From assembly GCA_002841625.1 (NCBI GenBank), contig PHAG01000008.1:1-64000 (forward strand): a stretch of 64,000 bases of DNA, in the 5' to 3' direction. A model generated the notes under the pieces. That model worked only from the letters and a program-made list of their open reading frames with translations. It made no database searches and was not told the DNA's origin. Numbering within the stretch: position 1 is the stretch's first letter; each line of letters begins with the position of its first letter. Made by a program: the position numbers and the translations under genes. Shown piece by piece: positions 10,649 to 41,197 of the stretch. Origin of the DNA: Firmicutes bacterium HGW-Firmicutes-1. Lineage in GTDB: Bacteria; Bacillota; Clostridia; Lachnospirales; Vallitaleaceae.

Positions 10649-10669
10649 TTTAGCAAAGAATCTAATAAC

Positions 10670-10699
10670 TTGATAAGTGCATATATTCTGTGATATTAT
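10670..10699 (+). promoter_or_regulatory. Promoter of PAS-GGDEF/cheX operon
   Basis: TTGATA (10670-10675), an 18-base spacer and TATTAT (10694-10699) preceded by TG form an extended -10 promoter. It lies 40 bases before the next start. Confidence 0.65.
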
Positions 10700-10738
10700 A
10701 TAGTAACAAAGTATGTCATATTATTTAGGAGGATTGTT

Positions 10739-11710: not shown

Positions 11711-11731
11711 TTTTACAAAAGAGGTGATACT

Positions 11732-12969: not shown

Positions 12970-12980
12970 TCAAGCATATC

Positions 12981-13006
12981 AACCACCCTAAATGGGGTGG
13001 TTTTAT
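12981..13006 (+). terminator. Terminator after methyltransferase gene
   Basis: AACCACCC pairs with GGGGTGGTT across a short loop, followed by TTTTAT. It ends the diguanylate cyclase-cheX-methyltransferase operon, although the next gene starts only 18 bases later and could be reached by read-through. Confidence 0.8.
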
Positions 13007-13024
13007 ATATAAAGGAGAACTAAA

Positions 13025-13552: not shown

Positions 13553-13655
13553 TTGTAATAAGAATGTTCTGCGAAAACTATTTACTGTTTTATTAATTTG
13601 TGATAAAATTAACAGTGTAATAGATTTACCATTCATTGCTAATTGTATTTCATAA

Positions 13656-13682
13656 TTGACAATGACAATATTATGATATAAA
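13656..13682 (+). promoter_or_regulatory. Possible gap promoter
   Basis: TTGACA (13656-13661) and TATAAA (13677-13682) are spaced by 15 bases, which is short of the optimum. It is the best match in the 266-base region before gap. Confidence 0.4.
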
Positions 13683-13752
13683 CTAAAATTGGGATATTTT
13701 AACATACTTATTCTTAATAAGAAGGCTTAGGTTTTCTTATTGTAATAAATAA

Positions 13753-14829
<1,077 letters not shown>

Positions 14830-14858
14830 TAAGTGGTTATAAAATAACTATACATTTT

Positions 14859-14898
14859 AAAAATGTTTCGATTGCAGTTGCAGTCGAAACATTTTTTT
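14859..14898 (+). terminator. gap terminator
   Basis: A 17-base arm (AAAAATGTTTCGATTGC) pairs with its complement across an AGTT loop and ends in seven T residues. It is one of the strongest terminators in the window. Confidence 0.92.
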
Positions 14899-14905
14899 AT
14901 TCATT

Positions 14906-15008
14906 AAGAAGGTTCTGTATATGCAATTGAAAAACAGATAGGTAACGAGGATTTTAACTCGGCGTATAAATAACAAAGATATTTAACGCTGCGCAGCCGA
15001 TTTTCTTG
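14906..15008 (+). repeat. Family A dispersed hairpin repeat, copy 1 (with insert)
   Basis: The copy begins AAGAAGGTTCTG, then has TGCAATTG, AGATAGGTAACGAG and ACTCGGCG, and ends GCAGCCGATTTTCTTG. It shares these blocks in the same order with the copies at 20608, 27254 and 55594. It carries about 25 extra bases after CGGCG. CGAG/CTCG can close an inner hairpin. It lies between the convergent ends of gap and the gene at 15029. Confidence 0.75.
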
Positions 15009-15028
15009 TAATTCACTTTGAAGTAGAA

Positions 15029-17575
15029 CTATGGATTTACAAAAACGCACATGGCTTTTTGTGAAGGCATATCGGACATTAAAAGCATTTCTCTATCAAA
15101 GGTTGCAACGTGAATCGCATAATCCAGTACTTTGCCTGAAATTAGTGTGGACAGCTGATTAGGATGTGAAAGTAATAAATCTTTATTAAAGGAGTTCGAC
15201 ATTTCTGGGAAGAAAGAAGCATAGAAAATATTGCTTTCAACCAAATCTTGGAAGAAATGACTTCCGAAAGAAAGTTCTGGAATCATTCCTCCTTTTGGAT
15301 ATGATTCTTCACAGATTGCAGTAAATTTATTAATTTCTGCAAACATTACAGGAACTCCGAGTGAAGCCATAGTCGAGCCACATCTTCCTGGTACAACGAG
15401 CATAATATCATCAGACTCATCAAAGACAGCATTAAGCTTTCCAATTGTTCTGGCAACTTCATGGCGATCTTGTTCTGATAATAAAATATATTGTTCAGGT
15501 ATTACGTAAACTACTGTTTTGATTACTCTAGCTTCGCCACCGCCTACAAAGCCACCATTAAGTGAGAATAATTTATAATGATCAGGAAGGTTTTCAGGTA
15601 ATTTGATAGTACTTCCTGCTTTGAAGGTTTGCAAAGGCCTACATTGGACAAAATCAATAATGATATTATCTTTTGATTTATTCATTGTAAACTCTACATC
15701 TACAGGGCATTCATAAACTTTTTCGAGGAGTGCTAGAGAGTCTCTCATTTTATTTAGAAAATCAGTGGTTTCGAATAATTGTTTGAAATCAGTTCTTATC
15801 ACCTTTAAATGATTCATGCCAATGTCTCGTGCTCTTTTTTCGGCAGCTAAATCGCGGCTTATAATCCAATTGGTCTCTACTTCTGTTAGATTATCAATCG
15901 CTTCTTGAACTGATATCGTACAGGAGGTATTGTTTTCAATATCCAATACATCCATATAACATTGGGAATTGTTTTCACCATGGTGATCAGTTGGTAAGGT
16001 ATTAGGCATATCTAAAGAAACAATGCTCGTATAGTCACCATCAGTTCGATCAACTGCTCTTGTGCCAAGCCCCATTACGATTCGAATCATACCAGCCTCA
16101 GGATTCATATTTAAATGCCATACATAAGAGCTATAGGATAGACCTACGCCAGCAACCAATGGATAGAAGTAATTTCCATGATAAGAGCCCGACACCCTTT
16201 GAACCAATACAGACATTTGTTCTCCAAGATTATTCAGTCCTCGTTTCTTGCGATATATTAATGCAGGTAATTCAACAGTACTAGCATATACGTTGCGAAT
16301 TGCACTAATGAAGGATTCCATACGTTCTTGTGTATCGCCTTGATTTGCGCAAAATACACTATGGTATTTGCCAGCAAATGCATTGCCATATCCATCCTCA
16401 AGTAAGCTACTAGAGCGAACTATAATTGGAGTTCTTCCTAAAGCATCTAAAGCTTGCTCAAATTGACTCATAATAATACTTGGAAAGCTACCTGCAAGTA
16501 TTTTTGCATGTAGTTCCTTGGCAACGGTAAAGTAACCTTCTGTTGAACGTTGTTGCATATGTAATAGCCATAAGCCATTATGGATTAAGAAGGACTGCCA
16601 TACATCAGAACCAATGTATAAAGAATCTTTTTGTAAATGTGCAGCTGCTTTCTCACCCTTGGTATGACCGCATAAGATACGCCTAGCAAGCAACATTCCA
16701 ACTGATTTTCCACCTATATATCCAGTGCCAATCATGCGATTCCGAATACCCAATAAGTCATCTAAAGTAAAATGATTTTTAGCAAGAGCTAATATTTTTT
16801 CGTCTTTTCCAAGTAAAAGGGTACATAGTCTATGTATCATTCTATCTATTTCTTCTTTATCAGGACTAGACCATCTAAGTGATTCTGCTTTAATAAATAG
16901 CTGTTCCCAATAATCTAGTTTATGAATGATAGGATATGGAAGACGTAATATATGATGCAATCCATCTGTTTGAGGAATTAACTTATTATCCGACCAAATA
17001 TGAGGCATGAACATAGTAGGTGAATCTCTATTCCAAACCTTTTTTGGTTGTACTACTTGGCCATCATCGGACGTATTTAAATCTATCATAATTTGTGTTG
17101 TATCTAATATTCTAGAAACTGTAGCCCAATCATGGTGCTTACGCATGATACAGAAATAAGCAACAGTATCTAACAAAAATAAATAGGGGCAAGTAACAGC
17201 AAAAAAATTGCCAATCATCAAATCGGTTGCCCAGGTTTGTTGTAGTGATGAAAGTGAATCAAAAATGTAATAGGCTCCTAAACCAGCCTCAGTTATAATG
17301 TTATAAATCTCAAAAGAAAAATGCTGAAACCCCAACGAAGAATCTAATATATATACCTCAACACCTTCTGTATCTTCAATAATCGGAGGATGTGAAGCAA
17401 ATCTAATATATAGAATTTTTCTGCCTTCTTTTCTTGCATTTGAAGCAAACGCACGAGCATATTGCATATAATCTTCTAAACTATCTACCTTCCAAACTAC
17501 ATTATCTCCTAGCCAAATATGATCAATGATCTCATCAAGTGCAGGTACTCCAGAATGAATTCTCTTATCAGACAT
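15029..17575 (-). CDS. KaiC-like / PEP-pyruvate-binding (PPDK N-domain) fusion protein
   Basis: An 848-residue protein. The first about 250 residues resemble a RecA/KaiC-type fold, opening with GVPALDEIIDHIWLGDNVVW, but I see no intact Walker A loop. From about residue 270 it matches the ATP-grasp domain of pyruvate phosphate dikinase and PEP synthase: GGKSVGMLLARR, the PIIVRSSSLLEDGYGNAFAGKY block, and the closing DFVQCRPL (QxRP). The swivelling phosphohistidine domain and PEP-binding barrel of true PPDK are absent. It is therefore not a complete dikinase; a regulatory or partner-dependent phosphotransfer role is inference. The start ATG follows AAAGGAG on the minus strand. Confidence 0.85.
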   Translation of the reverse strand: MSDKRIHSGVPALDEIIDHIWLGDNVVWKVDSLEDYMQYARAFASNARKEGRKILYIRFASHPPIIEDTEGVEVYILDSSLGFQHFSFEIYNIITEAGLGAYYIFDSLSSLQQTWATDLMIGNFFAVTCPYLFLLDTVAYFCIMRKHHDWATVSRILDTTQIMIDLNTSDDGQVVQPKKVWNRDSPTMFMPHIWSDNKLIPQTDGLHHILRLPYPIIHKLDYWEQLFIKAESLRWSSPDKEEIDRMIHRLCTLLLGKDEKILALAKNHFTLDDLLGIRNRMIGTGYIGGKSVGMLLARRILCGHTKGEKAAAHLQKDSLYIGSDVWQSFLIHNGLWLLHMQQRSTEGYFTVAKELHAKILAGSFPSIIMSQFEQALDALGRTPIIVRSSSLLEDGYGNAFAGKYHSVFCANQGDTQERMESFISAIRNVYASTVELPALIYRKKRGLNNLGEQMSVLVQRVSGSYHGNYFYPLVAGVGLSYSSYVWHLNMNPEAGMIRIVMGLGTRAVDRTDGDYTSIVSLDMPNTLPTDHHGENNSQCYMDVLDIENNTSCTISVQEAIDNLTEVETNWIISRDLAAEKRARDIGMNHLKVIRTDFKQLFETTDFLNKMRDSLALLEKVYECPVDVEFTMNKSKDNIIIDFVQCRPLQTFKAGSTIKLPENLPDHYKLFSLNGGFVGGGEARVIKTVVYVIPEQYILLSEQDRHEVARTIGKLNAVFDESDDIMLVVPGRCGSTMASLGVPVMFAEINKFTAICEESYPKGGMIPELSFGSHFFQDLVESNIFYASFFPEMSNSFNKDLLLSHPNQLSTLISGKVLDYAIHVATFDREMLLMSDMPSQKAMCVFVNP

Positions 17576-17875
17576 TTAGTCAACTCCTTTGATATCTGTA
17601 TCTATTTCATAGGGTTATATTCATTTATAATACTAAATTATAAGAAAACATACAAGAGTATTGTGATTTAAGCTTGCATTTGGTTACGAAACCGTAGCGA
17701 ATGCAGAGGTTTTGTAGATTGACTGCCAAGAATTTAACCTAAAAAAAAGAAAACTCCCTAGGAACAATGTTGACACCTATGTGCAAACAACCCAAGAGTT
17801 TTTCTTCTAATATTGAATATATAATAGAAATAACTGTTTTGTCGATAGCTTAAATCAGTAAGAAATGAACTAAAA
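17576..17875. other. Intergenic region with minus-strand terminator
   Basis: This 300-base gap holds the upstream region of the gene ending at 15029. It also holds the terminator of the histidine kinase gene (17744-17806) and a weak imperfect palindrome near 17674-17705 (GCATT...AATGC). I see no further gene. Confidence 0.6.
17744..17806 (-). terminator. Terminator of two-component operon
   Basis: Read on the minus strand, AGAAAAACTCTTGGG pairs imperfectly with CCTAGGGAGTTTTCT, and a run of T residues follows. It lies about 70 bases beyond the kinase stop codon. Confidence 0.65.
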
Positions 17876-19903
17876 TTACTCTTTATTTTCCACTTCAATA
17901 TCTGTTAATTGCGGATGCCACAATGGTAATGCAACAATCGCTTTATATAAATCCCCATCAATCTCTATCTTAAACGTACCACCTTGAAGGGTAGTTAAGC
18001 TTTGAGCTATAGATAGCCCTAAGCCAGAGCCTTCAGTAGTTCTTGATACTTCACCACGCACAAACCTTTCTGTCAATTGTTCAGGGGAAATATCAAGGGG
18101 CATAGCCGAAATGTTTTTTACTGTTAACTGACCGTGTGTAGCCGTTTGAATGATATCAATATATACTCTGGAACTCTTAAGCGAGTACTTTATTACATTT
18201 GACATTAAATTTTCGACGATTCGCCACATATACTTCCCATCCGCACTTACAAGGGTAGAAAGATCTGAATTTATTCGAATATCTAATTCAGAAGCTTTAA
18301 TTAGTTCTTCATATTCACCACATGCTTGTAACATCAGCTCATGTAAATCTACTTTTTCAGCAGTAACTATAAGATTTCCACTTGATGCTTTGCTCGCTTC
18401 AACCAAATCTTCGACCAGATTTTTTAATCTATTTGATTTTTCTTCTAGTATTTCTACATATCCATTGGCTATCTCATTTTTTAATTCTTCTTTTTTCAGA
18501 AGGTCTACATATGTGATAATAGAGGTCAAAGGAGTTTTTAAATCATGAGAAACATTTGTAATAAGATCTGTTTTCATTCGCTCACCTTTAACGGCCTCTA
18601 TAACTGCTTTTTTAAGTCCAATCTGTAAACTTTGAACGTCTTCCGCAAAGCTTGAGAATGCAACGGATATTTTAGAAGAATCTATTTTGTAGTCTAAGTT
18701 GCCTTTTGATATCTCTTTTGTTGCTTCCATTATTTTGGATAGGGAAACAAGTGACTTGCCTAAAAATATTAAAACAACAGTATTAAAACCAATTAAGAAA
18801 ATTGTACCAAAGAAAAATGATGTATAGCCACCTAAAATTGACAAAGCAAATACAATACTATTTATACCGCCATAGGCTAAAAGTAAGAGCATGAGCCATA
18901 CCTTGAATACCTTGCCGTTAAAGCACATTTTAATAAAGTTTCTGAATGCTTTTAATATAACATAAAATAAGGAATTCGTTATTAACTGCTTGTTTTTAAT
19001 TTGTCTTATCATTGAAAGTAAGTAACTTAGGCCAATCATAAAATCAATTGAGAGCACCATTGATGTGATTATAATGAGTTCAAGATCATCACCATAATAT
19101 GAAAATTGACCTACAAAACCAACTGAGATAATTGCGGCTAATAGAACCAACAAAGAATGCATATCGGTATATATTTTATCAATAAAGATTAAGTGAATAT
19201 GTCCACCCTTTTCTCTTCTTCCTGCAACACAAAAGAGATAAATCATTAAACCAAGTAAAGTAACAAATGAAACAATACCAATGATCATAATATTTTTAAT
19301 ATTATCTTTAATTTTGTTATAGGTCACATAGGAATCATAAAATATATCTCCAGGTTGTAGTGGTTCTTGAATAGATGCATATATTTCATAATTTGTTTGA
19401 GCTAGCATAGAATTAAAATCAAAATAATATTGATATCTATAGTTTTTTGTAGTGGTATAATTTGATTCGAGTTCATTAAAATAAACGCTCATTGGCATAT
19501 TTTGAATGAATTTTACTTTATCTGGGGCCGTTACATTTGTCATTTGATCATTGGTTTTCGTATTTTGAATTAAAAAGAAGAAGTTTTTGGTACCAGAGAT
19601 ATTATTTTCAATAGTCTTTAAGCGCTTCAAATTATCTTGAATCATATATAATTCATTGTTTGATGCTTTGATGGTTTCTTCATCAATGAGCACAGTTTTT
19701 AATTCAATAATATTATGTAAAAGATCTGTGAATTCACGTTGAAAGTTGGAGGTTTCAAGGTAACTTTTAGTAATGACTTCTTCATGATGATACAATAAAT
19801 AAATACCGCTTCCAGTAGCCCCAATAAAACAAATCAAAGCTAAAACAGTAGCTATTATTTTTGAACCTAACGCATATTTAATATTTTTCAATTTTGTATC
19901 CAA
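17876..19903 (-). CDS. Multi-TM sensor histidine kinase
   Basis: A 675-residue membrane kinase. One N-terminal helix (about 14-36) is followed by an extracytoplasmic stretch. A cluster of hydrophobic helices spans about 205-395, then a HAMP-like linker. The phospho-acceptor is His453 in NVSHDLKTPLTS. The N box (NLMSNVIKYS) and G box (GSGLGLSIAQSL) are intact. The layout resembles VanS-like kinases with an enlarged membrane module. The gene overlaps its response regulator by 26 bases, so the pair is cotranscribed and coupled. The signal is not evident; large membrane sensors of this kind often monitor the envelope, which is inference. Confidence 0.92.
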   Translation of the reverse strand: MDTKLKNIKYALGSKIIATVLALICFIGATGSGIYLLYHHEEVITKSYLETSNFQREFTDLLHNIIELKTVLIDEETIKASNNELYMIQDNLKRLKTIENNISGTKNFFFLIQNTKTNDQMTNVTAPDKVKFIQNMPMSVYFNELESNYTTTKNYRYQYYFDFNSMLAQTNYEIYASIQEPLQPGDIFYDSYVTYNKIKDNIKNIMIIGIVSFVTLLGLMIYLFCVAGRREKGGHIHLIFIDKIYTDMHSLLVLLAAIISVGFVGQFSYYGDDLELIIITSMVLSIDFMIGLSYLLSMIRQIKNKQLITNSLFYVILKAFRNFIKMCFNGKVFKVWLMLLLLAYGGINSIVFALSILGGYTSFFFGTIFLIGFNTVVLIFLGKSLVSLSKIMEATKEISKGNLDYKIDSSKISVAFSSFAEDVQSLQIGLKKAVIEAVKGERMKTDLITNVSHDLKTPLTSIITYVDLLKKEELKNEIANGYVEILEEKSNRLKNLVEDLVEASKASSGNLIVTAEKVDLHELMLQACGEYEELIKASELDIRINSDLSTLVSADGKYMWRIVENLMSNVIKYSLKSSRVYIDIIQTATHGQLTVKNISAMPLDISPEQLTERFVRGEVSRTTEGSGLGLSIAQSLTTLQGGTFKIEIDGDLYKAIVALPLWHPQLTDIEVENKE

Positions 19904-29235: not shown

Positions 29236-30660
29236 ATGGGGATTACAACATTGAATTTGAGATTAGATCAAAGAAAATTTGCTGTTATTTGTTTTTCATT
29301 CTTTTTTGCATGGATATTAGCGGTTCCTTTTGAAGGACAAGTACTATATGCATTGACTGAAAAAGCAAATGTGGATCCATCGAAGTATATTTTTATTTCA
29401 ATACTTGCTAATTTTATTGGACTAATTAGCTGTGGTTTTATTGTAAGAAAACAAATCTCCGCCAAAATAGTAATGATCATATCAATACTGATATGTGTGT
29501 CGGGTAGCATGGTTTTTTTTCTGGAATTTTCGATGCTGTGGTATATTGCACTCATTATCGCTTCCTTTTTTGCAGGCTTATTTGTAGCAAGTTTTGGCTT
29601 TTATGTTAAGAATTATGCTGCATCTGATCAACGTTATAAAATGGCAGCGGATGTGTTGATTTATTCAAATATCATTATGATTATTATCAATGTCATCACA
29701 GTAAATTTGTCTGTTCAATTAGGATTGATGATTTCTATCGCCGTATTATTAGTTGCTTTGGTTGCTGTTTATAAATTAGAGGCTTATCCAGATCATAAGA
29801 ATACAATTCATAGATCAAAGCTAGAAGAACATAAACAACTCCCAAGTGTTTTGAAGCCATTTCTTATTTTGTGTCTATTCATAACAATCATCACCATTAA
29901 TTCTGGCTTAATGTATCAAGTTGTTACACCTGCCTATGGTCATTTTGAGGTGTTAGCTAGTTACTATTGGGCAGTTCCGTATATTCTAGCACTCATTATT
30001 CTTAGAAACTTACCAAAGCAAAAAAATCAAGCATATATTTTATATATTGCAATGGCAATGATAGGATTATCATATATTGCATTTATGTGGTTAGATCCTT
30101 CCATTTCAAGTTATTTGTTGATTGATACACTAATGTTAGGTGCCTTTGGGGTTTGTGATTTGTTCTGGTGGAGTATTCTAGTAAGATTTTTTGATTATTC
30201 AGATAATCCAGCTCGGATTTTAGGTATTGGGTCATCGATGAATGTTTTAGGGATATTGATCGGTGGGTTTTTGGGAAATAAATTCTTGTATACTGAAGGA
30301 GATCATACAAATGCTTCGGTCATCGCATTAATTATTATATTTATTGTTTTAATTATGTTACCGGTCTTAAATGTTCAACTAACGAGACTCTTTAAGAACC
30401 ATATCTTTTTAGTAAAGTTTGCTAAAATGGACGAAAATGAGCAAGTGAAAACGGTGCAAGAATTTAAATACAGTGATTATTTGACAGAGAAGGAAAGCGA
30501 AGTTGTTAAGCTATTACTTAAAGGGTATACATATAAAGGTGTTGCAGATAGCTTGTTTGTTACTGAAAATACAATGAAGTACCACATAAAAAATATTTAT
30601 CAGAAGTTGAATATTAACAGTAAAATGGAATTAATTAAGTTGTTTTCAGACAAAGAATAA
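29236..30660 (+). CDS. 12-TM MFS-like membrane protein with C-terminal LuxR DNA-binding domain
   Basis: A 474-residue protein. About twelve hydrophobic helices occupy residues 12-385, in a major-facilitator-like pattern. A linker is followed by a LuxR/GerE helix-turn-helix (about 410-470): LTEKESEVVKLLLKGYTYKG, VADSLFVTENTMKYHIKNIYQKL. Membrane-anchored LuxR regulators of this MFS-like type are known, mainly in Coriobacteriia and Clostridia. They presumably sense a substrate with the transporter fold. GGAG at 29224 precedes the ATG. Its target genes are unknown; the adjacent LemA-type cluster is one possibility, by position only. Confidence 0.87.
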   Translation: MGITTLNLRLDQRKFAVICFSFFFAWILAVPFEGQVLYALTEKANVDPSKYIFISILANFIGLISCGFIVRKQISAKIVMIISILICVSGSMVFFLEFSMLWYIALIIASFFAGLFVASFGFYVKNYAASDQRYKMAADVLIYSNIIMIIINVITVNLSVQLGLMISIAVLLVALVAVYKLEAYPDHKNTIHRSKLEEHKQLPSVLKPFLILCLFITIITINSGLMYQVVTPAYGHFEVLASYYWAVPYILALIILRNLPKQKNQAYILYIAMAMIGLSYIAFMWLDPSISSYLLIDTLMLGAFGVCDLFWWSILVRFFDYSDNPARILGIGSSMNVLGILIGGFLGNKFLYTEGDHTNASVIALIIIFIVLIMLPVLNVQLTRLFKNHIFLVKFAKMDENEQVKTVQEFKYSDYLTEKESEVVKLLLKGYTYKGVADSLFVTENTMKYHIKNIYQKLNINSKMELIKLFSDKE

Positions 30661-30683: not shown

Positions 30684-30716
30684 AACACCCACACGATTAG
30701 TGTGGGTGTTTTTTTA
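30684..30716 (+). terminator. Terminator of MFS-LuxR gene
   Basis: AACACCCACAC pairs perfectly with GTGTGGGTGTT across GATTA, followed by six T residues. Confidence 0.93.
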
Positions 30717-30863
30717 CATACCACCCATTTAATGTGTTTTTGTAGAATTATAATTTTGGTATGTTTATAGGTGGGTGGAAGAGTTATTGCATAAGAGGTA
30801 CGGTTAACGTTGAAACGGTACCCCAATATAAATCAAATAGAATCAAAGTTAGGAGGAATATCA

Positions 30864-31391
30864 TTGTCATACATCATTGGAGTAATCATTTCATTGCTTT
30901 TATTCATTACAATCGGTCTCGTTTTCTTTTACATTCAAATGATTCAAGAAAGCCGGATTGTAAAAAGAAATTGGGAGGAAATAGAAGAGTCATTTTATAT
31001 TTGTAAAACACTGCTTGTAAAATTTCTAGTACATAGTAGAAACCATTTCGGATATGATGAGGAGTCTCTTAATCATATTGAAAGAAGGATCTCAAAATTA
31101 ATAATATTACTAGAAACTGAAGTAGTTGCCAATAGCTTAAAACAACTCCAAGAGACTTTAGAAAGAACTTTGGTAGAGTTAAGCATATATGCTGATCAGA
31201 AACTTGATGAAGACTTAAAACTACTAGTAAATCAGCTTTATGATATAGAAAATAAAATAGTATTATGTTTACATGATTACAATGCTGCTATAACCATTTT
31301 CAACCAGTGGTTAACAACGTTTCCAAACAGCATTTCAGCTAATATTATCGGAGTAGAGCCACTACCATACTTGCTGATGGAAGAAGAATAA
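30864..31391 (+). CDS. Diverged LemA-like membrane protein
   Basis: A 175-residue protein with one N-terminal helix (about 2-25) and a long helical body. It ends in YNAAITIFNQWLTTFPNSIS and the motif IGVEPLPY. This matches the C-terminal LemA pattern YN-x(5)-N-x(5)-FP-x(8)-G-x-x-P, while the middle has diverged from the canonical LRADLIPNLVE-type block. It starts at TTG 30864, preceded by AGGAGG (30851-30856) at 7-base spacing; the frame is open upstream. It is the first gene of a six-gene cluster with a DUF2207 gene 16 bases away. LemA-type proteins have no settled biochemical role. Confidence 0.78.
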   Translation: MSYIIGVIISLLLFITIGLVFFYIQMIQESRIVKRNWEEIEESFYICKTLLVKFLVHSRNHFGYDEESLNHIERRISKLIILLETEVVANSLKQLQETLERTLVELSIYADQKLDEDLKLLVNQLYDIENKIVLCLHDYNAAITIFNQWLTTFPNSISANIIGVEPLPYLLMEEE

Positions 31392-31407
31392 CGAAAGGTG
31401 GGATAAG

Positions 31408-33300
31408 ATGTTTAAAAAAATTATTATTACAATAATTGCAGTGTTTATTTTGTTTTTGATGGGAACGGGTATATATGAGAAACAAATGGGAATTTTGTAT
31501 TCTGATGGAAGGAAGTCTATATTGCAAGACTTGAAATACGAGGTGACTATTCTTTCCGATGGGAGTGCTATCGTTAATGAAGTTAGAGAATACAAATTTC
31601 TAAAAGGTGATTTTAGTAGAGGATACATAGAAGTGGAAGGTTTTGTAGATCAAGTAGCTGTATTTGAAGAAAATGAGTCTTATGAGCAAATGGAGGCCTT
31701 TGATAATAATAGGCCGGGTGGTTTTTATGCGGTAGAACCGACTGGATCCAAAACAAGAATTGAGTGGTACTATAATGTCAAAGAAAAAGAAACGAAAACT
31801 TTTGAGATACAATATAGAGTTTCCAACGCGGCAAGGCTTTATAATGATTGCGTTGATTATTTTCAAAAGTATGTTGGGAGTGACAATCAATATAAAATAA
31901 AAAATCTAGAAGTCCAAGTTCATTTGCCAGAGGGCGCCAATAGCGATAATACAAAAATTTGGGCTCATGGGCCTTCGGGCGGTGAAATTATCTTTAAAAA
32001 TGACACAACGGTAGAGCTGTTTATGAAAAATGTTCCACCTAAGGTATACGTTGAAGCAAGGTTTTTGATGCCAACAAAGGTTATGCCGCCAACAGATGAA
32101 AAAATAAGCGTTGATAGATATGACGAGCTATATGAAATGGAAAATAAGGCAGCTAATGAAGGCGATAAAGAAAAGGTAAAGAATGGTGCTATCAACATCC
32201 TTACACTATTCATATCTATAATCATTATTCTTCTTCCTATGATTTCCTCAATAAAATATAAAGCTAAAGTAAAAAGACTTAAACCAGAGCTTGAGCCCGA
32301 CTACTATAGGGATTTGCCTTCAAACATATATCCAGCTGAGTTAGATTATTTGATGAATCATTATACCGGTAAATATGATCCATCCGTTCAAATCTCTGCA
32401 ACACTACTAGATTTAATTCATAAAGGTGTTGTATATGGGGAGGCGAAAGATAAAAGTGGAATTAAGAAAAAAGATACGGAATTTATGAATCTTTCTGCGA
32501 ATTGGAGTAAATTATCAGGGCATGAAAAAGCATTATTGGATTTTCTTTTTGTAAAAATTGGTGGAGGAACTGGAAGAGTATCGCTAAAGGAAATTAAAAA
32601 GTTCTGTTCAAACAAGAAAACAGGAAAAGAAGCATATAGCTTTTATCAAGACTTTAATAATAAAGTTCATAATATTGTCAGTAAAAAAGGGTATTTTGAA
32701 ACGAAAAGAAATGCGCTACCTAAGAGCACGAACCGTTATATTATTTTATATTTGTTTTTAATGGTTTTACCAATGATTATGATGAACAAAATAGAAGTAT
32801 TTGCAACATCAACCATTTTTTATATTTCTATAGCAGGTTTTGTAGGTTTTATGATTGTTGCTTTCTTTGGAGGTAAGGTAAAGCCGCTACTTACTCAAAC
32901 TGGAGAAAACCAAATGGCACTTTGGAAGGCATTTCAAAGCTTTTTGAATGATTTTACAACCTTCGATAAAAAAGAGTTGCCAGAGCTATTTATGTGGGAA
33001 AAATATTTGGTTTATGCAACTGTTCTAGGAGTTGCAGGAAAACTTTTGAAGCAGCTCTATGCTAAATATCCGGAGCTTGTTGATATGGATCAAAATTCAA
33101 GATTGTTTTATTTAATCAATAACGGAAATTATCAAAGTTCATACCAATATTTAGGAGATATAGGAAATGCGATATCTGAAGCAATGAGGGATTCTATTCA
33201 TATTACTTCAAAGGCATCCAAGGGCGATGGTGGAGGTTTCTCTTCAGGTGGTAGTGATTCAGGTGGTGGAGCAGGAGGTTCTAGCGGCGGTGTTGATTAG
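31408..33300 (+). CDS. DUF2207 membrane protein with Gly/Ser-rich tail
   Basis: A 630-residue protein. An N-terminal helix (about 3-22) and an extracytoplasmic beta-rich DUF2207 domain (about 30-235) come first. A helix near 265-285 follows. Then there is a cytoplasmic part with the family block YPAELDYLMNHYTGKYDPS, two close helices near 450-490, and a tail of GGGFSSGGSDSGGG type. DUF2207 proteins very often neighbour LemA genes, as here on both sides. The function is unknown; envelope maintenance is suggested by location only. Confidence 0.88.
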   Translation: MFKKIIITIIAVFILFLMGTGIYEKQMGILYSDGRKSILQDLKYEVTILSDGSAIVNEVREYKFLKGDFSRGYIEVEGFVDQVAVFEENESYEQMEAFDNNRPGGFYAVEPTGSKTRIEWYYNVKEKETKTFEIQYRVSNAARLYNDCVDYFQKYVGSDNQYKIKNLEVQVHLPEGANSDNTKIWAHGPSGGEIIFKNDTTVELFMKNVPPKVYVEARFLMPTKVMPPTDEKISVDRYDELYEMENKAANEGDKEKVKNGAINILTLFISIIIILLPMISSIKYKAKVKRLKPELEPDYYRDLPSNIYPAELDYLMNHYTGKYDPSVQISATLLDLIHKGVVYGEAKDKSGIKKKDTEFMNLSANWSKLSGHEKALLDFLFVKIGGGTGRVSLKEIKKFCSNKKTGKEAYSFYQDFNNKVHNIVSKKGYFETKRNALPKSTNRYIILYLFLMVLPMIMMNKIEVFATSTIFYISIAGFVGFMIVAFFGGKVKPLLTQTGENQMALWKAFQSFLNDFTTFDKKELPELFMWEKYLVYATVLGVAGKLLKQLYAKYPELVDMDQNSRLFYLINNGNYQSSYQYLGDIGNAISEAMRDSIHITSKASKGDGGGFSSGGSDSGGGAGGSSGGVD

Positions 33301-33357
33301 GAATATCCATGCACACCGATTTTCCGACGAAAACAATGAAATAATGGAGGGAAAGCT

Positions 33358-36249
33358 ATGTATTGTAAGTATTGTGGAACAAAAATACAAGATAATGAAA
33401 TGAACTGCAGTCAATGCAACCATCAAGTAAACAGGGGCACTCAAATCACCCCAGTTCATACAGAGGAACTTAAGCCAGTTATGCCTGTACATAGAGTAGA
33501 GCAAAGTTCTATTACGCCTGTAAATGTGACAGAACAAAAAAGCGATGCTCCGATAAATAGGGCAGATCAAAAGCCTGTAAAGTGGGAAATGGATTCACCC
33601 TATGGAGAAATAAAAGATAACAGAGCGATTAAGACAACACAAAAACATTCCAGAAGAAGTGTGGGTATCGGACTTGCAACAATAGCTTTGATTGTAGTTT
33701 TTGTACTTCTCATTAATTCACTAAGTGGGGTAAAAGAAATCATAATGAGTAAAAAAGACACATCTATGGTTGGCGGCGTGAGTATAGACAGACCAAATCT
33801 TGAAACCATGCTGACGGCATCACCGTTTTATGCTCCTGACTTAGTACTGCCTTCAAAGGTAGGTAAAGAACATAGAGAAAATGTAAAAAATAAGATCGAA
33901 GAAATCTTACGTGTTACGGATGAAATGATGATAAGTTATGCAGGGATGAAACAAGAAGTATTTGATAACATTATTAGAATCCAAGTTATATTAGCTAAAA
34001 TCGATGAAGTTCATGGCACGAACTATCTTGAAAATAGTCAAGTGCTAAAAGAGCTAGAGCAATTGGTTGCTGAATTTGAATTGCAGGAACTAAAGTATTA
34101 TGGGCTTGATATTGACGAAACAAAGGAAGCTCTATATGATAGTGACATTGCATTTGCAAGAGTTGCGGCTGCAATGACGTCGTGTGAGAAGGTAACAGAG
34201 GCATACCAGTTACTCATAAATTATTCAGCAAATATTTTTATAGCATATGAAGCTGATACAGACCCAAATATTCAAATATTTATAAATATGCTTGAAGATG
34301 TAAACGTTGAAGATCCAGAAAAGGAATATGCCCCAACGCTTATGGCTGGTGTAGACACAGTAAACCAATTGTTATTAGAGTTGGACGCTGCAAATGCTTA
34401 TTTAGCACTGAGCAATCTTGAATATATGGGAAATGAATTAGACCAAGTTAAGGATGATATTGAAGAGATGAAAGATTCGGATTTAGTAGATGATGAATTT
34501 ATTGAATTGTCAGAGCTAATGGTTGAAGAATATGAAGAGATGCAAGCAGCATTGACCCAAGAACTTGAGTGGTATGTAGGTAGTTTGGATTTAGACATGG
34601 CATACTACGAGAATACAGAATCAAAGTTTAGGTTCTTCAATCCGATTATCGCGGAGGCTTCTTCTGATAAATATAGTTATGGAGCAGGCTACGATGTGCA
34701 AATGCTTCAGAAAAAGGGGCAGGAATATATGCAAGCCCAAAGAAAAGAATATCAAGAAAAGTATAAGGATGAATCCTACTGGCAAACTACAGTAAGAACT
34801 GCAAAAGAGGTACGTAAGGGCACTCAAGATATCGTTGAAGGTTGGGATGCTGCAACCTTTGAGTTAATGAGATCAGCAGCAGGAAGATTTACACCAAGTT
34901 TAGGGAATAAAGAAGAAGACGCATATAAAGATATTCAAGACAGATACGCACTTGCAAAAAAAAGAAAAGAGGAAGGCAAAGGCGGTCAGGATGTATTTAA
35001 AGTAGCAGTGAAAGGCTTTCAAGCGACTCAGGACATGGCAGGGGAAGGCTGGTACAATATAGCAGCTTTTTGGGAGGATGAATTAGGCTTGCCAGAAGAT
35101 AGTGTAGCTCAAGTTGCTAGCGGAATGGGAAATTTAGCAGCAGAGAGCTTTACCCAGTTTGGTCAAGGGCTTGCAAGAATTCTTGATCCAGACGCTAAGG
35201 ATTCAGATATTGCAAAAGGTTGTTTAGAAGTTGCAACATCAATGGTAGGAGGAAGCAGTAATATATTTTCTGCCACAAAAAATGGTGGAAAGGTTCTTGT
35301 GAAAATGGGAGAAATCATAGCCAATCCGAAGATCAGTGCAAAAGGAGTCATAGATGCAGTAAAGGCGATAAAGAACATAGGATTGCCACAGCTAGGCTCT
35401 TTGAAATATAAGGATGCGGCTATAAAGGGTACTATGGCTGCGCTTAAAAAAACAAAACAAGTTGCAGGAAGCATGATAGATAAGCTCGATGAGACCTTTA
35501 CTAAAGAGATATCAGGTATATTTACACAAAATTGGAAGGAAAGTCTTGCAGGGCTTAGAGACTATGCAAATAAAGTAGGTTCTAATGTTGACGATTCAGC
35601 TGTTAAGCTAATAGATGAATTTGTGAATGGATATATTGATAACAAAGTTACAGAGTTGGCCTCTCATCCATGGCTCTGGGACCCTGATATAAGTGAAGAG
35701 GAAAAGGAAGCTAAGCTAGGTGAGGAAATAGATAAGATGAATGAAGAGGTTGAACAGGGGCTTAGTGATATTGAAACAAATATTGAGGAAAGTATTTTAA
35801 ATGGAAAGTATACAGGCAGTTGGAGTATATTAACAATTGAGTATTATGATGGAATAGAAGATCCAGAGGAATGGTTGCCAATACTTGAACTTTATCAGGA
35901 AAGCATAGGAGTAGAATACCCATGCACATTTAATATAATGGGTGGGGAAATGCAAATGGATATGTCTCTAGATAAGGAACTATTAATGAATCCAAATTCA
36001 ACAGATAAAAATGATGTTATAAGAAAGAAAATTGAGATTGACACAAAAAAAGGTGAAATACTTGGATATAGAGTACCGCCTAATAATGATGTATCAATAA
36101 CCTCAAAAGCAACAAAGGAAAAAACAGTTATTGAGGGAACGTATTATTATACAGTATCATTTTCTGACGAATATTCACCTAATTTCAAAGTATCAAAAAG
36201 TGACCCATATGTTGTAACCATCAGTTTTAGAGTTGAAAAATATAATTAA
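33358..36249 (+). CDS. Zinc-ribbon, single-TM large protein of unknown function
   Basis: A 963-residue protein. It begins with a zinc ribbon (Cys3, Cys6, Cys17, Cys20). A proline/valine-rich linker with imperfect repeats (TPV-x(4)-E-x-x, PV-x-V, about 33-75) follows, and then one membrane helix near 102-122. The remaining about 840 residues should lie outside the membrane. They are mostly acidic and helical, with a glycine-rich stretch near 560-700 and a final beta-rich region (about 805-960). I recognise no enzyme motif. It sits between DUF2207 and lemA genes in a tight operon, so a shared envelope role is inferred. Confidence 0.8.
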   Translation: MYCKYCGTKIQDNEMNCSQCNHQVNRGTQITPVHTEELKPVMPVHRVEQSSITPVNVTEQKSDAPINRADQKPVKWEMDSPYGEIKDNRAIKTTQKHSRRSVGIGLATIALIVVFVLLINSLSGVKEIIMSKKDTSMVGGVSIDRPNLETMLTASPFYAPDLVLPSKVGKEHRENVKNKIEEILRVTDEMMISYAGMKQEVFDNIIRIQVILAKIDEVHGTNYLENSQVLKELEQLVAEFELQELKYYGLDIDETKEALYDSDIAFARVAAAMTSCEKVTEAYQLLINYSANIFIAYEADTDPNIQIFINMLEDVNVEDPEKEYAPTLMAGVDTVNQLLLELDAANAYLALSNLEYMGNELDQVKDDIEEMKDSDLVDDEFIELSELMVEEYEEMQAALTQELEWYVGSLDLDMAYYENTESKFRFFNPIIAEASSDKYSYGAGYDVQMLQKKGQEYMQAQRKEYQEKYKDESYWQTTVRTAKEVRKGTQDIVEGWDAATFELMRSAAGRFTPSLGNKEEDAYKDIQDRYALAKKRKEEGKGGQDVFKVAVKGFQATQDMAGEGWYNIAAFWEDELGLPEDSVAQVASGMGNLAAESFTQFGQGLARILDPDAKDSDIAKGCLEVATSMVGGSSNIFSATKNGGKVLVKMGEIIANPKISAKGVIDAVKAIKNIGLPQLGSLKYKDAAIKGTMAALKKTKQVAGSMIDKLDETFTKEISGIFTQNWKESLAGLRDYANKVGSNVDDSAVKLIDEFVNGYIDNKVTELASHPWLWDPDISEEEKEAKLGEEIDKMNEEVEQGLSDIETNIEESILNGKYTGSWSILTIEYYDGIEDPEEWLPILELYQESIGVEYPCTFNIMGGEMQMDMSLDKELLMNPNSTDKNDVIRKKIEIDTKKGEILGYRVPPNNDVSITSKATKEKTVIEGTYYYTVSFSDEYSPNFKVSKSDPYVVTISFRVEKYN

Positions 36250-36269
36250 AGCAACTAGGAGGAAATAGT

Positions 36270-36830
36270 ATGCAATACATAATAATAGGAATTGTAGCGG
36301 CACTTAGTTTATTTGGAATGAGACTTATATTATTTTATAATAAGATGATCAAGAAAAAAGCAAAGGTAGATAACAGCTGGGGACAAATTAATGTGCAATT
36401 AAAAATGAGGGCAGATTTGATACCTAATTTAGTTGAAACGGTAGGAGCCTATGCCATCCACGAACAAGAAACATTGGCGAAGGTAACGCAAGCAAGAAAT
36501 AACTATTTAAATGCCCAATCTACAGGAGCAGCAATTCAGTCATCCGATGCAATTACAGGAGTATTAGGTAAGTTATTTGCAATATCAGAACAATATCCAG
36601 ACTTAAAAGCAAACCAAGGCTTTTTGGATTTACAGGCGCAATTGAGGGAACTAGAACAAAAAATTGCCATGTATAGACAGTTTTACAATGATACAGTTTT
36701 GATGTTTAATCAATTTGTAATTTCTTTCCCAAATAATTTTTTTGCAGCTATTTTTGGTGCTAGGGAACTGCCGTTCTTCCAAATAGATGCTTCAGAAAGA
36801 TCAGCACCTACAGTTCAGTTTAAGAGATAA
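36270..36830 (+). CDS. lemA: LemA family protein
   Basis: A 186-residue canonical LemA. It has an N-terminal helix (about 2-22), then VDNSWGQINVQLKMRADLIPNLVETV, the family hallmark, then the long helices and the closing YNDTVLMFNQFVISFPNN-x-FAAIFG. It should be anchored with its helical bundle on one membrane face. AGGAGG precedes the start. It is the second LemA-type gene in the same cluster, 20 bases after the zinc-ribbon gene and 14 bases before the secreted HExxH gene. Confidence 0.93.
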   Translation: MQYIIIGIVAALSLFGMRLILFYNKMIKKKAKVDNSWGQINVQLKMRADLIPNLVETVGAYAIHEQETLAKVTQARNNYLNAQSTGAAIQSSDAITGVLGKLFAISEQYPDLKANQGFLDLQAQLRELEQKIAMYRQFYNDTVLMFNQFVISFPNNFFAAIFGARELPFFQIDASERSAPTVQFKR

Positions 36831-36844
36831 AAGGAGAGAGGAAA

Positions 36845-39800
36845 ATGAGAAGGAAAATTGCTATTTTTATAACTTTAATGATTCTATTAACGAGCTTACC
36901 TGTGAATTCCTTTGGTAGTAGCAATATTATTAATGATTGGAATCAGGATACAGATTATGGAACAAATCCTACGGTAAAGACTTTTGTAACCTTTGAAAAC
37001 AATAGCATCATTGATATGGTTAGAGTTTATCATAAAAATCCAAAAGGAAATATTTCTATTACTTTAAAAAACAGTACGAATACCTATACAATTAATAACC
37101 TTATAAATACTGAATCTTTTGGTGGTAGCAAGGAATATAAAATATATAGAGTGGATAATCCATATACCTATGTGAAGGCTGGAACTTATGAGGTTATTTC
37201 CTCAGAACCAAGTACTTGGATACATAATAGTGCAACAGGAAGAAGAGGCTTTTTAGTTATAAATGCGAGCGCAATTTATATTTCAGATGCATCTGATATT
37301 GAAGGAATCATAAGCATTGAAGATGAAGATCCAATGATTATTGAACCAGAAGCTGAAACTCCAATTATTGTAAAACCAGAAGTGAAAGCTCCAAGTTCAA
37401 AGGACGATAGTGCAGTCGTATTTTTAAAAATTGGCAATCCTTCCATGTATATAAATCAAGTTGAAAAAGAAATTGATCCGGGAAGGAATACCGTGCCAAC
37501 GTTAAAAGACGGTAGAACGCTTCTTCCAATTAAAGCTTTAATTGAAGGTTTAGGTGGAACGGTAGAGTGGTATGGAAATGAAAGAAAGGTTTCAATTAAG
37601 TTGAACAATAATCATATTGAAACTTGGATTGGAAGTAAGACGTATAAAATCAATGGTGTTAGCAAAACAATGGATGTAGCACCAGTAATCATTAATTCAA
37701 GAACTATGGTTCCGTTAAGATTTGTTGCACAAAACCTCAATGCAACGGTTCATTGGGAAGGAACCCAAAAAGTTGTAATGGTTGCCTATTACGGCTCAAC
37801 AGCAACCGTTCAAACGATCAATGCAGATAACAATTCCTATTACATTGGAGATATTAGTAAGGCATATCTGATTAATTACGAAGACAAGGTAAATGTATAT
37901 ATTCCAAAGAATACATTAAGCAAGCCAGATGAAATTACAATTACACCACTCAGCTTAAAGGGAGTAGATACTTCAATCGCAAAGGTATTGTATTCCTATG
38001 ATATATCAATTGGGAATCAACATGAGTTTAAGAATGATTTAACCATTAGATTTCCATATGATAAAAGCAAAATGGATAAAAATTATTCGGATGAGCTTCA
38101 ATTATTTGCTGTAACGCATAATGAAACCACTAAGAAACTTGAAAATGTTCCATTTGAGGTTGTTTCCTCAACAGGACTATTTTTCATTGAAACAAATCAC
38201 TTATCAGCAAAAACTGTTTTTACAATGGATACGAAGGGACAGTACTTTGTAACTACTGTACAAAATAATAACTTAACTAAGACGGATAAGCCAGAAGATA
38301 GCAGTGGTTATTTTCAATCCTTTGTTACAGCACTCAATGAGAATGTAATTACCCCTATCAGCAATCAAGTTGCAAAGACTACGAAACCTGCAGTTGATTT
38401 CGTTACAGATTTTATTGATTCAACACTGTCTGCAACAAGGGGTTGGACTACGGCAATCAAATTAGGGCTAAACCAGCAAGATTATATTATTTATGTAGCT
38501 GGTAAGTTTGCAATTGTGTATGATGATGATACCGATTACGAGGATATTGAAGATGCTTTTGGGTATTTGAAAAAAAACTATGCGAACTACGTTTCTAGCT
38601 TTGGCAGTTCCTTAATCGATAATCCAACTTATGCACAGGTATTAAATTATAAAAAAGATGGAGAAGTAATTAGTGTTCCTGAAAATAAAATATCTAAAGT
38701 TGTTCCAGATCCAATAAAAGACTTAGCCTATGCGTTAAATGAATATGAAAAACGTTTAGCTGCTATAGGAATAGAAGTAAAAAGTTCTACAGAAGGGTAT
38801 GTCCCTATTTATGTGCTTCCAACCTATAGGCAAGCTTTTGATGAAACAGTAAATGCCATATATTCAGGTATGCATATTAGTGAAGCTTCCTATTCTTGTA
38901 CTGAAACCATCGTTCAAAATGTTACCCATGAATTATTTCATTATATTCAATATAATAAATATTACGGGAAGAATAATCTAGCAAGTGCTTTGGCGAGTAT
39001 GGCTGGGAATGATTGGATTAATGAGGCGACTGCGGAATATGTATCAGTAGTGAAAGGCTTAAATAAAAGTTTAATCAAAAATCCAAATAATCGGAACATG
39101 AAAGATGCTTTTTATTCTGAAGAAATATCAAAATCATCTGACCCACATTACTACCAATCTGCTTATTTTATCGAGTATCTGGTAGATAAAGAAGGATTGA
39201 ATCTCAATGATTTTATGACTTTTTATGCGAAACAATCCAATACAACTCAATCTTTGTATCCAGAAGAAATCATTCAAGACTATTTTGCAGAAGAACTCCG
39301 AAATGAAGATGATACAACAGATTTATATGCAAAGTTTCTTGCATATATGCTGCTTACGAATGAGGGACCAAACAAAACGAGTGAAATACATAAAACAAAA
39401 ATTAATCAAGCAACAGAATCTCTTTTCGTTGCTACGAAAAACAAATGGGAGCAGTCCTTGGCTTCTGCTGCATATACGCCGAAAATATTAGCAGTTGAAT
39501 TGCCAAAGGCAGGTGCATATTCATCAACCTATATGGCAACCGTTCCTTGCTCAAAGAATCAAGTGATTTATGTGTATTCCTTAGATAATAATAAAAAGGT
39601 AGTAAATCCAGTTCCAATCAAAGTATTTAAAGGCTACAGTGACAATAACTTATCTATTACAGTGCCTGCCAATACGACAAAAACGATATATTTTATTTCC
39701 ATATCTAGTGAAGAAGTTAGCCCACTCAACAAAATTTTAATGATGGAAAGCGAAAACATTACGACAGTGAAGCAAGAGCTTTATGTGGAAAGAGGCATGA

Positions 39801-40129
39801 TTACTGATCCAGATACAAATGAGTCTTATGAAGGCGTTGTATATTGTGAGGGCAATGTAGAATTAGAGTTAGAAGGTTTTGATAGTGTAAAAAACTTAGT
39901 ATACGAATGGAATTTGGGAGATGGTAATACGACTACAACCAATAATAACAAGCTTAGCTATACGTATAAGGATTTGACGGAAGCCTATAGAAAGAGCTTG
40001 AGTAACCCATTTCTACAAGTAGGATTTTATGATGTATCAGTAACGGTTTATAGACGTGTAGATGGTGATCTTGAGTACTGGTTTACTGCACTTGGAGCTG
40101 TAAATCTTTCGGGATTTTCTTTACAATAA
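36845..40129 (+). CDS. Secreted protein with copper-amine-oxidase-N-like stalk, HExxH metallopeptidase-like and PKD-like domains
   Basis: A 1094-residue exported protein. The signal peptide spans about 1-24. Residues about 195-320 match the stalk domain often called copper amine oxidase N-terminal-like: GRTLLPIKALIEGLGGTVEW and SRTMVPLRFVAQNLNATVHW. A linker has acidic repeats. Near the middle, HELFH (695-699) is followed by Glu727 in WINEATAEY, the spacing of a gluzincin-type zinc site (HExxH plus downstream Glu). A PKD-like segment (about 1030-1080) has GDGNTTT and YTYKD. It is probably a cell-wall-associated metallopeptidase. It lies in the LemA cluster after lemA. Confidence 0.82.
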   Translation: MRRKIAIFITLMILLTSLPVNSFGSSNIINDWNQDTDYGTNPTVKTFVTFENNSIIDMVRVYHKNPKGNISITLKNSTNTYTINNLINTESFGGSKEYKIYRVDNPYTYVKAGTYEVISSEPSTWIHNSATGRRGFLVINASAIYISDASDIEGIISIEDEDPMIIEPEAETPIIVKPEVKAPSSKDDSAVVFLKIGNPSMYINQVEKEIDPGRNTVPTLKDGRTLLPIKALIEGLGGTVEWYGNERKVSIKLNNNHIETWIGSKTYKINGVSKTMDVAPVIINSRTMVPLRFVAQNLNATVHWEGTQKVVMVAYYGSTATVQTINADNNSYYIGDISKAYLINYEDKVNVYIPKNTLSKPDEITITPLSLKGVDTSIAKVLYSYDISIGNQHEFKNDLTIRFPYDKSKMDKNYSDELQLFAVTHNETTKKLENVPFEVVSSTGLFFIETNHLSAKTVFTMDTKGQYFVTTVQNNNLTKTDKPEDSSGYFQSFVTALNENVITPISNQVAKTTKPAVDFVTDFIDSTLSATRGWTTAIKLGLNQQDYIIYVAGKFAIVYDDDTDYEDIEDAFGYLKKNYANYVSSFGSSLIDNPTYAQVLNYKKDGEVISVPENKISKVVPDPIKDLAYALNEYEKRLAAIGIEVKSSTEGYVPIYVLPTYRQAFDETVNAIYSGMHISEASYSCTETIVQNVTHELFHYIQYNKYYGKNNLASALASMAGNDWINEATAEYVSVVKGLNKSLIKNPNNRNMKDAFYSEEISKSSDPHYYQSAYFIEYLVDKEGLNLNDFMTFYAKQSNTTQSLYPEEIIQDYFAEELRNEDDTTDLYAKFLAYMLLTNEGPNKTSEIHKTKINQATESLFVATKNKWEQSLASAAYTPKILAVELPKAGAYSSTYMATVPCSKNQVIYVYSLDNNKKVVNPVPIKVFKGYSDNNLSITVPANTTKTIYFISISSEEVSPLNKILMMESENITTVKQELYVERGMITDPDTNESYEGVVYCEGNVELELEGFDSVKNLVYEWNLGDGNTTTTNNNKLSYTYKDLTEAYRKSLSNPFLQVGFYDVSVTVYRRVDGDLEYWFTALGAVNLSGFSLQ

Positions 40130-40158
40130 GTATTTATTGAGGTAATAAAGGAGCAAAA

Positions 40159-40878
40159 ATGAAAAATACACAAATAAATGCATTGATTTCCTGCGTTATC
40201 ATATTCATTAGTTCAATTGTTACAACCATAATAGCCATGGATCATGGCTATTATGGAATCGTTCTTTTAAGCGTATTTTTAGCGATATCTAGTTTTGTCA
40301 TATTTTTTCTTTTTGCAGGAAGAGCTAGTTGTATGGGTAAAATGCTCAATGGCAGTGAATTGATTGCATCGTGGCAATACTCAGATATAGAGACAATTAA
40401 AAATATCAAAGAAATGAAGGAAGAAAACAAAGGGTTGTTTGTTATGGCTTTTCCCTTTTTTTCTCTTGTAATGATTATCGTAGCAGTAACTGTAGGGGTT
40501 GCATCTGAGAATATAGCTACAGGGCTATTCATTTCTCTCATTGTAATAATAATCAATATTTTATTTTTTAAATTTATTATGGTAATCGACATCAAAGAAA
40601 AAGAAATAAAGATGACAGCTTCAAATGACAATAAGAGGTATGTATATATTTCTCAATCAGGAATATATGCTCACGGAATGTTAAATGTATGGAAGGGATG
40701 GGGATCAAGCTTGAAGTCGGTTCATTATGACAAAACAACTCAAACCTTAGACTTTATATATTCATACCTTAGGCCCTATGGTTTTGGAAGGTATACTGTC
40801 AACGTGAAAGTGCAAGATGATAAATTATATGTAATAGATGACTTAAGAAATGCTTTTTTGACTTATTGGCAAGAATAG
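40159..40878 (+). CDS. Four-TM membrane protein of unknown function
   Basis: A 239-residue protein. Two helices lie near 8-55 and two near 92-140. A C-terminal beta-rich region (about 140-235) follows, with KEIKMT, GIYAHGMLNVWKGWGSSL and TLDFIYSY, which resembles a bacterial PH-like or YcxB-type tail. I do not assign a family. It is the last gene of the LemA cluster, 29 bases after the HExxH gene, with RBS AAAGGAG. A weak terminator follows. Confidence 0.75.
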   Translation: MKNTQINALISCVIIFISSIVTTIIAMDHGYYGIVLLSVFLAISSFVIFFLFAGRASCMGKMLNGSELIASWQYSDIETIKNIKEMKEENKGLFVMAFPFFSLVMIIVAVTVGVASENIATGLFISLIVIIINILFFKFIMVIDIKEKEIKMTASNDNKRYVYISQSGIYAHGMLNVWKGWGSSLKSVHYDKTTQTLDFIYSYLRPYGFGRYTVNVKVQDDKLYVIDDLRNAFLTYWQE

Positions 40879-41092: not shown

Positions 41093-41172
41093 AAGCAAAA
41101 TTTGTATACTTTATTTTAGTGTCCTTTCGTAATTTGAAAGGGGTTTCTATTTATTGGTACTAGTTTTGTTAG

Positions 41173-41197
41173 AACTCTGCTTGCGCAGAGTTTTTTT
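41173..41197 (+). terminator. Riboswitch-controlled terminator
   Basis: AACTCTGC pairs with GCAGAGTT over TTGC and is followed by seven T residues. The P1 3' strand GAGTTC (41087-41092) can instead pair with GAACTC (41172-41177), giving the antiterminator. Guanine binding should therefore switch transcription off. Confidence 0.88.

Follow-up and report, generated by a model that had tools for sequence, protein, structure and literature searches.

A probable six-gene operon in which a LemA–DUF2207 pair is joined by large exported proteins, one with a predicted ZU5/GAIN-type domain ahead of a putative zinc peptidase

LemA and DUF2207 proteins are widespread and almost uncharacterized. In the DNA analysed here (the window, 64,000 nucleotides of contig PHAG01000008.1 from Firmicutes bacterium HGW-Firmicutes-1), genes of both families lie in a row of six, which an earlier reading of the sequence alone had regarded as a candidate envelope system. 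The locus raises the question of whether the six genes constitute a conserved machine and what their giant exported products may do at the cell surface.

The Six Genes Probably Form One Operon

The genes, all on the forward strand, encode LemA1 (30864–31391, with a TTG start and the ribosome-binding site AGGAGG), a DUF2207 membrane protein with a Gly/Ser-rich C-terminal tail (31408–33300), P3 (33358–36249), LemA2 (36270–36830), P5 (36845–40129) and P6 (40159–40878). The genes, coordinates and 14–57-base spacing described in the sequence-only reading were confirmed; the intergenic gaps measure, in order, 16, 57, 20, 14 and 29 bases, and each of the six genes is preceded by a purine-rich ribosome-binding site. 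A strong terminator-like hairpin (30684–30710, forward strand) is located 3' of a LuxR-type gene and 5' of the cluster. Two more on the same strand, at 41171–41194 and, weaker, at 41122–41142, follow the last gene, and a hairpin scan detected no strong hairpin in the internal gaps. Separate promoters splitting the cluster had been named as the counter-case to a single operon. Promoter-like matches were no more frequent in the cluster than in shuffled sequence and therefore do not split it. Because terminator-like hairpins flank the genes with none of them strong inside, and because an upstream 22-base element is common to this locus and that of a congener, G001, the six genes are probably one operon, as had been proposed; the short gaps and ribosome-binding sites agree with this assignment.

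A Membrane-Spanning LuxR-Type Regulator Is Encoded Upstream

The gene preceding the cluster (29236–30660, forward strand), which the sequence-only reading had passed over, encodes a LuxR-type protein with an MFS-like transmembrane (TM) region followed by a C-terminal GerE DNA-binding domain (Pfam, 56.5 bits, residues 415–469 of 474). A LuxR helix–turn–helix (HTH) placed after a multi-TM domain is the arrangement of transmembrane LuxR activators, and multi-TM hydropathy was seen in the orthologue. One orthologue lies directly upstream of the reduced G001 locus (E 5.6e-209) and another heads a ZU5/zinc-ribbon cluster in G057, a genome of another family (E 1.5e-124).

Between the LuxR gene and the operon, a candidate operator/promoter element of 22 bases, ACCACCCATTTAATGTGTTTTT (30720–30741, forward strand), is conserved with G001. 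The best 22-base match between the two LuxR–operon intergenic regions, offset by a few bases, had 19 of 22 positions in common, the maximum in 2000 Markov-shuffled pairs being 18, and the element has only one match within the window.

In Eggerthella lenta, LuxR proteins with 12 TM helices activate adjacent genes upon a small-molecule cue (PMC9734109). DadR, CadR and HcdR of that species share with the protein described here an N-terminal membrane domain, a C-terminal LuxR HTH and likely targets in adjacent genes. Unlike these activators, which are located beside catechol dehydroxylase, the LuxR protein of the window adjoins an envelope operon; the likeness described is one of architecture. Since orthologues precede the G001 and G057 loci, the upstream element is conserved and the Eggerthella lenta relatives activate their neighbours, the LuxR protein likely controls the operon, as judged from gene position and a single conserved element.

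LemA1, LemA2, the DUF2207 Protein and P6

The description of one diverged and one canonical LemA was confirmed, both proteins scoring above the Pfam cut-off for the LemA family (PF04011, 26.2 bits). LemA1, with one TM helix, scored 44 bits over profile positions 55–139 only, corresponding to the C-terminal two thirds; the LIPNLV-type motif of the LemA N-terminus has been lost from it, a point that the earlier reading did not mention. LemA2 scored 180 bits over positions 1–149. In the LemA tree LemA1 forms a very long branch, so extreme in length that it could not be placed, and the tree and locus comparison identified LemA2 orthologues in G001, G006 and genus g8. LemA2 also has a match to PHROG 1383 (E 1.6e-14), labelled "virion structural protein"; some phages have LemA-like proteins with a structural annotation. 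The magnetosome protein MamQ (PMC4902198) belongs to the LemA family like LemA1 and LemA2, but the NCBIfam model of MamQ fell far below its cut-off here (80.6 versus 250 bits).

The identity of the DUF2207 protein likewise held, with both its N domain (PF09972, 80.9 bits) and its C domain (PF20990, 153.5 bits) above cut-off. The pairing with LemA was borne out by co-occurrence: LemA was present in 21 of 23 genomes with DUF2207 versus 48 of 146 overall (Fisher p 2.9e-10 over the 146 genomes, kinship ignored). The LemA–DUF2207 gene pair, noted previously (PMC12631010), was seen in many of the genomes sampled. As in the window, the pair (PF04011 with PF09972/PF20990) consists of adjacent genes for a single-TM LemA and a DUF2207 protein with an N-terminal exported part and a Gly-rich tail. 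Unlike the plain pair, the locus described here has two LemA genes together with P3, P5 and P6, a combination found, among the genomes sampled, in this one only. Loss of DUF2207 in S. mutans impairs stress tolerance and biofilm formation (PMC10457818), and LemA is a YidC partner in the same species (PMC8546722). The published LemA/DUF2207 data (PMC10457818, PMC4902198, PMC8546722) are compatible with an envelope role and do not fix a mechanism.

The four TM helices reported for P6 were reproduced by hydropathy, and no family was assigned to the protein. Its homologue in G001, 46% identical, is encoded directly after LemA2. P6 was present in 2 of 146 relatives; three matches reached E <= 0.001, the third being a frame with six stops. 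A perfect palindrome with a 14-bp stem, CCATAATAGCCATGGATCATGGCTATTATGG, was noticed close to the beginning of the P6 coding sequence (40226–40256).

P5 Carries a Predicted ZU5/GAIN-Type Domain Ahead of a Putative Zinc Peptidase

P5 is a 1094-residue secreted protein with an N-terminal signal peptide, in which a stalk, a ZU5/GAIN-like domain, a zinc metallopeptidase and a PKD-like C-terminus were distinguished. The stalk, already recognized in the earlier reading, is PF07833 (residues 217–312, 37493–37780, 108.4 bits). The main feature of the locus, which that reading overlooked, is the predicted ZU5/GAIN-type domain with an H-L-S motif (residues ~347–464, 37883–38236). In the AlphaFold model this region has a pLDDT of ~75–87 and a ZU5-like beta-sandwich fold. 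The best eight Foldseek matches were all ankyrin ZU5 structures (probability 1.00, E 1.1e-3 to 1.5e-2, the best E being borderline, just beyond the tool's 0.001 line), and the BAI3 GAIN domain was matched at a probability of 0.90; the Pfam ZU5 and GPS sequence profiles did not match the domain.

The domain ends with TNHLS (residues 450–454), containing the putative self-cleavage motif H452-L453-S454 (38198–38206) of the H-[FL]-[ST] type expected at the end of domains of this superfamily. The cleavage motif of GAIN/GPS domains has the form HL(S/T). In other members it is HFS (PIDD and Nup98) or SFS (FIIND), and ZU5-UPA proteins undergo autocleavage at F/S (PMC3210808). H-[LF]-[ST] was retained in all related domains found except one, the 880-aa ZU5 homologue from G057, which has lost the histidine; the ZU5 fold can therefore occur without cleavage. 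From the motif and the modelled fold, we infer that P5 cuts itself at H452-L453/S454. A second protein with a ZU5-like domain, carrying TNHFS, is encoded in the window's own genome (L153, G000:C2:500001-520000, ~10201–12018), unlinked to the operon.

The HExxH...E and PKD-like parts reported earlier were supported unevenly. The zinc-binding motif HELFH (residues 695–699, 38927–38941), with E727 (39023–39025) proposed as the third ligand 28 residues past it, is conserved in two distant ZU5-peptidase proteins, and HELFH and WxxEA align in P5, L154 and L155 in the manner of gluzincin-type peptidases (peptidase MA). The same region reached only 21.8 bits against the BSP peptidases (PF04450; 19 bits for the whole protein, cut-off 23.8), and the PKD-like part 17.9 versus 23.5 bits (PF00801). 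Structure prediction, which had been suggested for the HExxH domain, resolved the ZU5/GAIN-like domain and modelled the peptidase poorly, with low confidence, so that the assignment of a zinc peptidase is drawn from the motifs. Since the stalk domain swamped a search with whole P5, sub-regions were used against the relatives, and the peptidase part had no close relative among the 146. No match to P5 was found in plasmids, the PDB sequence search gave nothing useful, and the N-terminal part showed no identifiable anchor.

A ZU5 domain followed by HELFH...WxxEA was found in two distant Clostridia, both proteins having anchor or adhesion domains at the N-terminus. In G274 the order is TM anchor, TIG, ZU5 with HLS, peptidase and PKD-like part; in G396 it is SLH (a cell-wall anchor), Ig, ZU5 with HLT and peptidase. 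P5 thus adds to the bacterial surface proteins in which a ZU5/GAIN-type domain precedes a metallopeptidase. Zhang et al. (2012) assigned the ZU5, GPS and Nup98 domains to a single autopeptidase superfamily, for which they proposed a wider role in bacterial surface enzymes (PMC3482391). Like those proteins, P5 is exported and has a ZU5/GAIN-like domain with H-x-S before an enzymatic domain. Most of the cases described there are RHS toxins, glycohydrolases or lipases, whereas P5 has a gluzincin-type peptidase and is encoded in a LemA–DUF2207 operon.

P3 Is a Rare Protein with a Zinc Ribbon and a Single TM Helix

P3 comprises 963 residues, with a zinc ribbon, one TM helix, a mostly helical ectodomain of ~830 residues and a small C-terminal part. 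The single TM helix described earlier was confirmed. The ribbon stayed below the Pfam cut-off (17.9 versus 25 bits), with its four cysteines invariant relative to the sole homologue. This homologue (L005), from G019, a genome of another genus, is 48% identical overall and 63% over residues 444–811. The positive flank of the TM helix is on its N side, and the C-terminal ~830 residues are therefore probably outside. The suggested structure prediction of this ectodomain was run and could be read only as "helical", at low confidence (mean pLDDT 35).

P3 was present in 2 of 146 relatives. Among 391 genomes of the class no further one was found, the weak matches being zinc ribbons only, and a scan of contigs with the P3 alignment returned one true homologue, its patterns landing on the zinc ribbon. 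Plasmids, phages and viral contigs gave no match and the PDB sequence search nothing useful. A relationship of P3 to the ZU5-helical proteins of G057 and G018 was rejected (hhalign probability 7).

The juxtamembrane segment of P3 (WEMDSPYGE...DNR), beside the cytosolic zinc ribbon, is conserved too. Ribbon and segment, together with the large ectodomain and a predicted exported protease in the same operon, would be consistent with transmembrane signalling, in which cleavage of the P3 ectodomain, or of another surface protein, by P5 is relayed through the P3 helix to the ribbon. This reading is considered quite unlikely, as G019 keeps P3 with no match to the P5 peptidase (on a short P3 contig) and neither a DNA-binding nor a sigma-factor partner turned up. 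Contact-dependent antagonism through P5 and P3 was also considered, ZU5 autopeptidase domains being found in polymorphic toxins (PMC3482391) and P3 being large and exported. It seems very improbable: neither a toxin domain nor an immunity-like gene was detected, nor any match in the defence library, the peptidase is in the middle of P5 and not at a variable C-terminus, and the core of P3 shows conservation across genera instead of polymorphism. A defence system was rejected, PADLOC giving no meaningful match.

Parts of the Locus Come and Go Separately

The neighbourhood search for all six families, run as the sequence-only reading had advised, recovered the complete set in no other genome sampled. 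That reading had allowed that its proposal would fall if the giant genes were absent from all other LemA–DUF2207 loci, and this was nearly the outcome, P3 and P5 occurring at none of the others sampled. A conserved six-part system was thus not borne out, with P3 and P6 each in 2 of 146 relatives and the P5 peptidase having no close relative.

What remains of the locus in the congener G001 is the LuxR gene, 94 codons from the 3' end of DUF2207, LemA2 and P6; LemA1, P3, P5 and the greater part of DUF2207 are missing. The remnant (L122, 10560–10844, reverse strand), a pseudogene encoding the C-terminus and Gly-rich tail before LemA2 and P6, appears to record a deletion inside the locus. P6 is followed in G001 by an unrelated stalk protein, whose closest counterpart in the same genome lies elsewhere. 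In G019, P3 is followed directly by LemA2; the sole DUF2207 match is on a different contig, with neighbours as in the sister species. The contig with P3 is the same as in the HGW-Firmicutes-3 MAG record. Contamination is unlikely, since in the LemA tree the LemA2 of this contig falls among those of its genus and sister species; the P3 contig is therefore not foreign. As the loci of G001 and G019 keep different subsets, the parts come and go separately. By these sequence comparisons the operon is a rare, patchwork and lineage-specific extension of the known, poorly understood LemA–DUF2207 pair and not a conserved machine.

Such a distribution also suits the possibility, somewhat less likely than the explanation given below, that P5 (perhaps also P3) is a lineage-specific surface enzyme that was inserted and is co-regulated with no physical or functional partnership, LemA–DUF2207 doing its own envelope or stress job. 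The other LemA–DUF2207 loci sampled have neither P3 nor P5, the P5-like ZU5-peptidases of G274 and G396 lie on short contigs where neither LemA nor DUF2207 was detected, and G001 retains LemA2 and P6 with no P3, P5 or intact DUF2207; this explanation stays strong because P5 and P3 were lost while LemA2 was kept. Against it, P3 and LemA2 are neighbours in a second genus too, and LemA/DUF2207 are repeatedly adjoined by zinc-ribbon genes. Six Zn_Ribbon_1 genes were observed no more than 3.5 kb from LemA or DUF2207 versus 0.54 expected (four versus 0.49 with G000, the window's own genome, and G019 left out), in genomes picked for carrying LemA/DUF2207 loci and with kinship ignored. Zinc-ribbon genes adjoin LemA–DUF2207 in G018, G004 and G068. 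The G068 cluster (L135, G068:C18, 6451–12722) also speaks against a mere passenger, as it places side by side a 178-aa TM protein, a zinc-ribbon TM protein, DUF2207, LemA (split in two by a broken reading frame) and a secreted protein of 714 residues whose ZU5-like match is borderline (E 0.006). In outline, this cluster resembles the operon of the window. Matches of the P5 N-terminus, the P3 C-terminus and P6 to G068 cluster proteins were convincing by eye but not significant by sequence.

A Tentative Explanation of the Operon

Given the layout, operon-like signals, promoter element, domains, ZU5-like predicted fold, motifs and modular gain and loss established here, the locus is tentatively explained, with a likelihood put a little short of even, as an inducible LemA–DUF2207 operon extended by exported parts, including P5 as a tethered self-cleaving surface metalloprotease, under the control of the membrane LuxR protein. 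A small molecule would be the cue on which the regulator activates the operon. LemA2, LemA1, DUF2207 and P6 would form a membrane base, and P3 would extend its large helical ectodomain outward from the cytosolic zinc ribbon. P5 would be the effector, an exported zinc metalloprotease linked to the stalk via the ZU5/GAIN-type domain; the self-cut at H452-L453/S454 would leave the protease half held non-covalently, and this tethered half might then be set free or become exposed on the cell surface. For the self-cleavage, the protease activity, the physical complex and the inducer, we infer from sequence and models.

The inducible-operon explanation is supported by the P3–LemA2 adjacency in another genus and the LemA2–P6 adjacency in G001. 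Counting against it are the full six-gene set in a single sampled genome and the low confidence of the P3 and peptidase models, as well as the borderline Foldseek E, the N-terminal part of P5 with no identifiable anchor, the G057 homologue that has lost its histidine, and a link between regulator and operon drawn from position and one element. Because the congener keeps LemA2 and P6 with no P5, P5 need not act with them. Of the surface-assembly or quality-control machine suggested earlier, the placement in the envelope and the pairing of a secreted zinc protease with a membrane bundle were supported. Quality control found no specific support; the domains are better explained by a tethered protease that cleaves itself. 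An arrangement in which the LemA–DUF2207 base displays the GAIN-like self-cleaving tethered metalloprotease with a giant zinc-ribbon-anchored partner, and a ligand or force frees the protease, seems unlikely; such release would parallel the tethering of adhesion GPCRs. The operon ties LemA/DUF2207 to a testable enzyme, whose zinc site can be read from the sequence and whose self-cut is predicted between two named residues, as well as to a candidate inducible promoter, which gives a handle on the function of the pair.

A further cluster was observed in G057 (L150, G057:C1:2368001-2388000, 8859–19632). It encodes the LuxR-MFS protein, a 172-aa TM protein, two ZU5 lipoproteins, a DUF4352 lipoprotein, a 235-aa TM protein and an 880-aa zinc-ribbon/TM/ZU5 protein. 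LemA and DUF2207 are both absent from this cluster, which is possibly a related envelope system.
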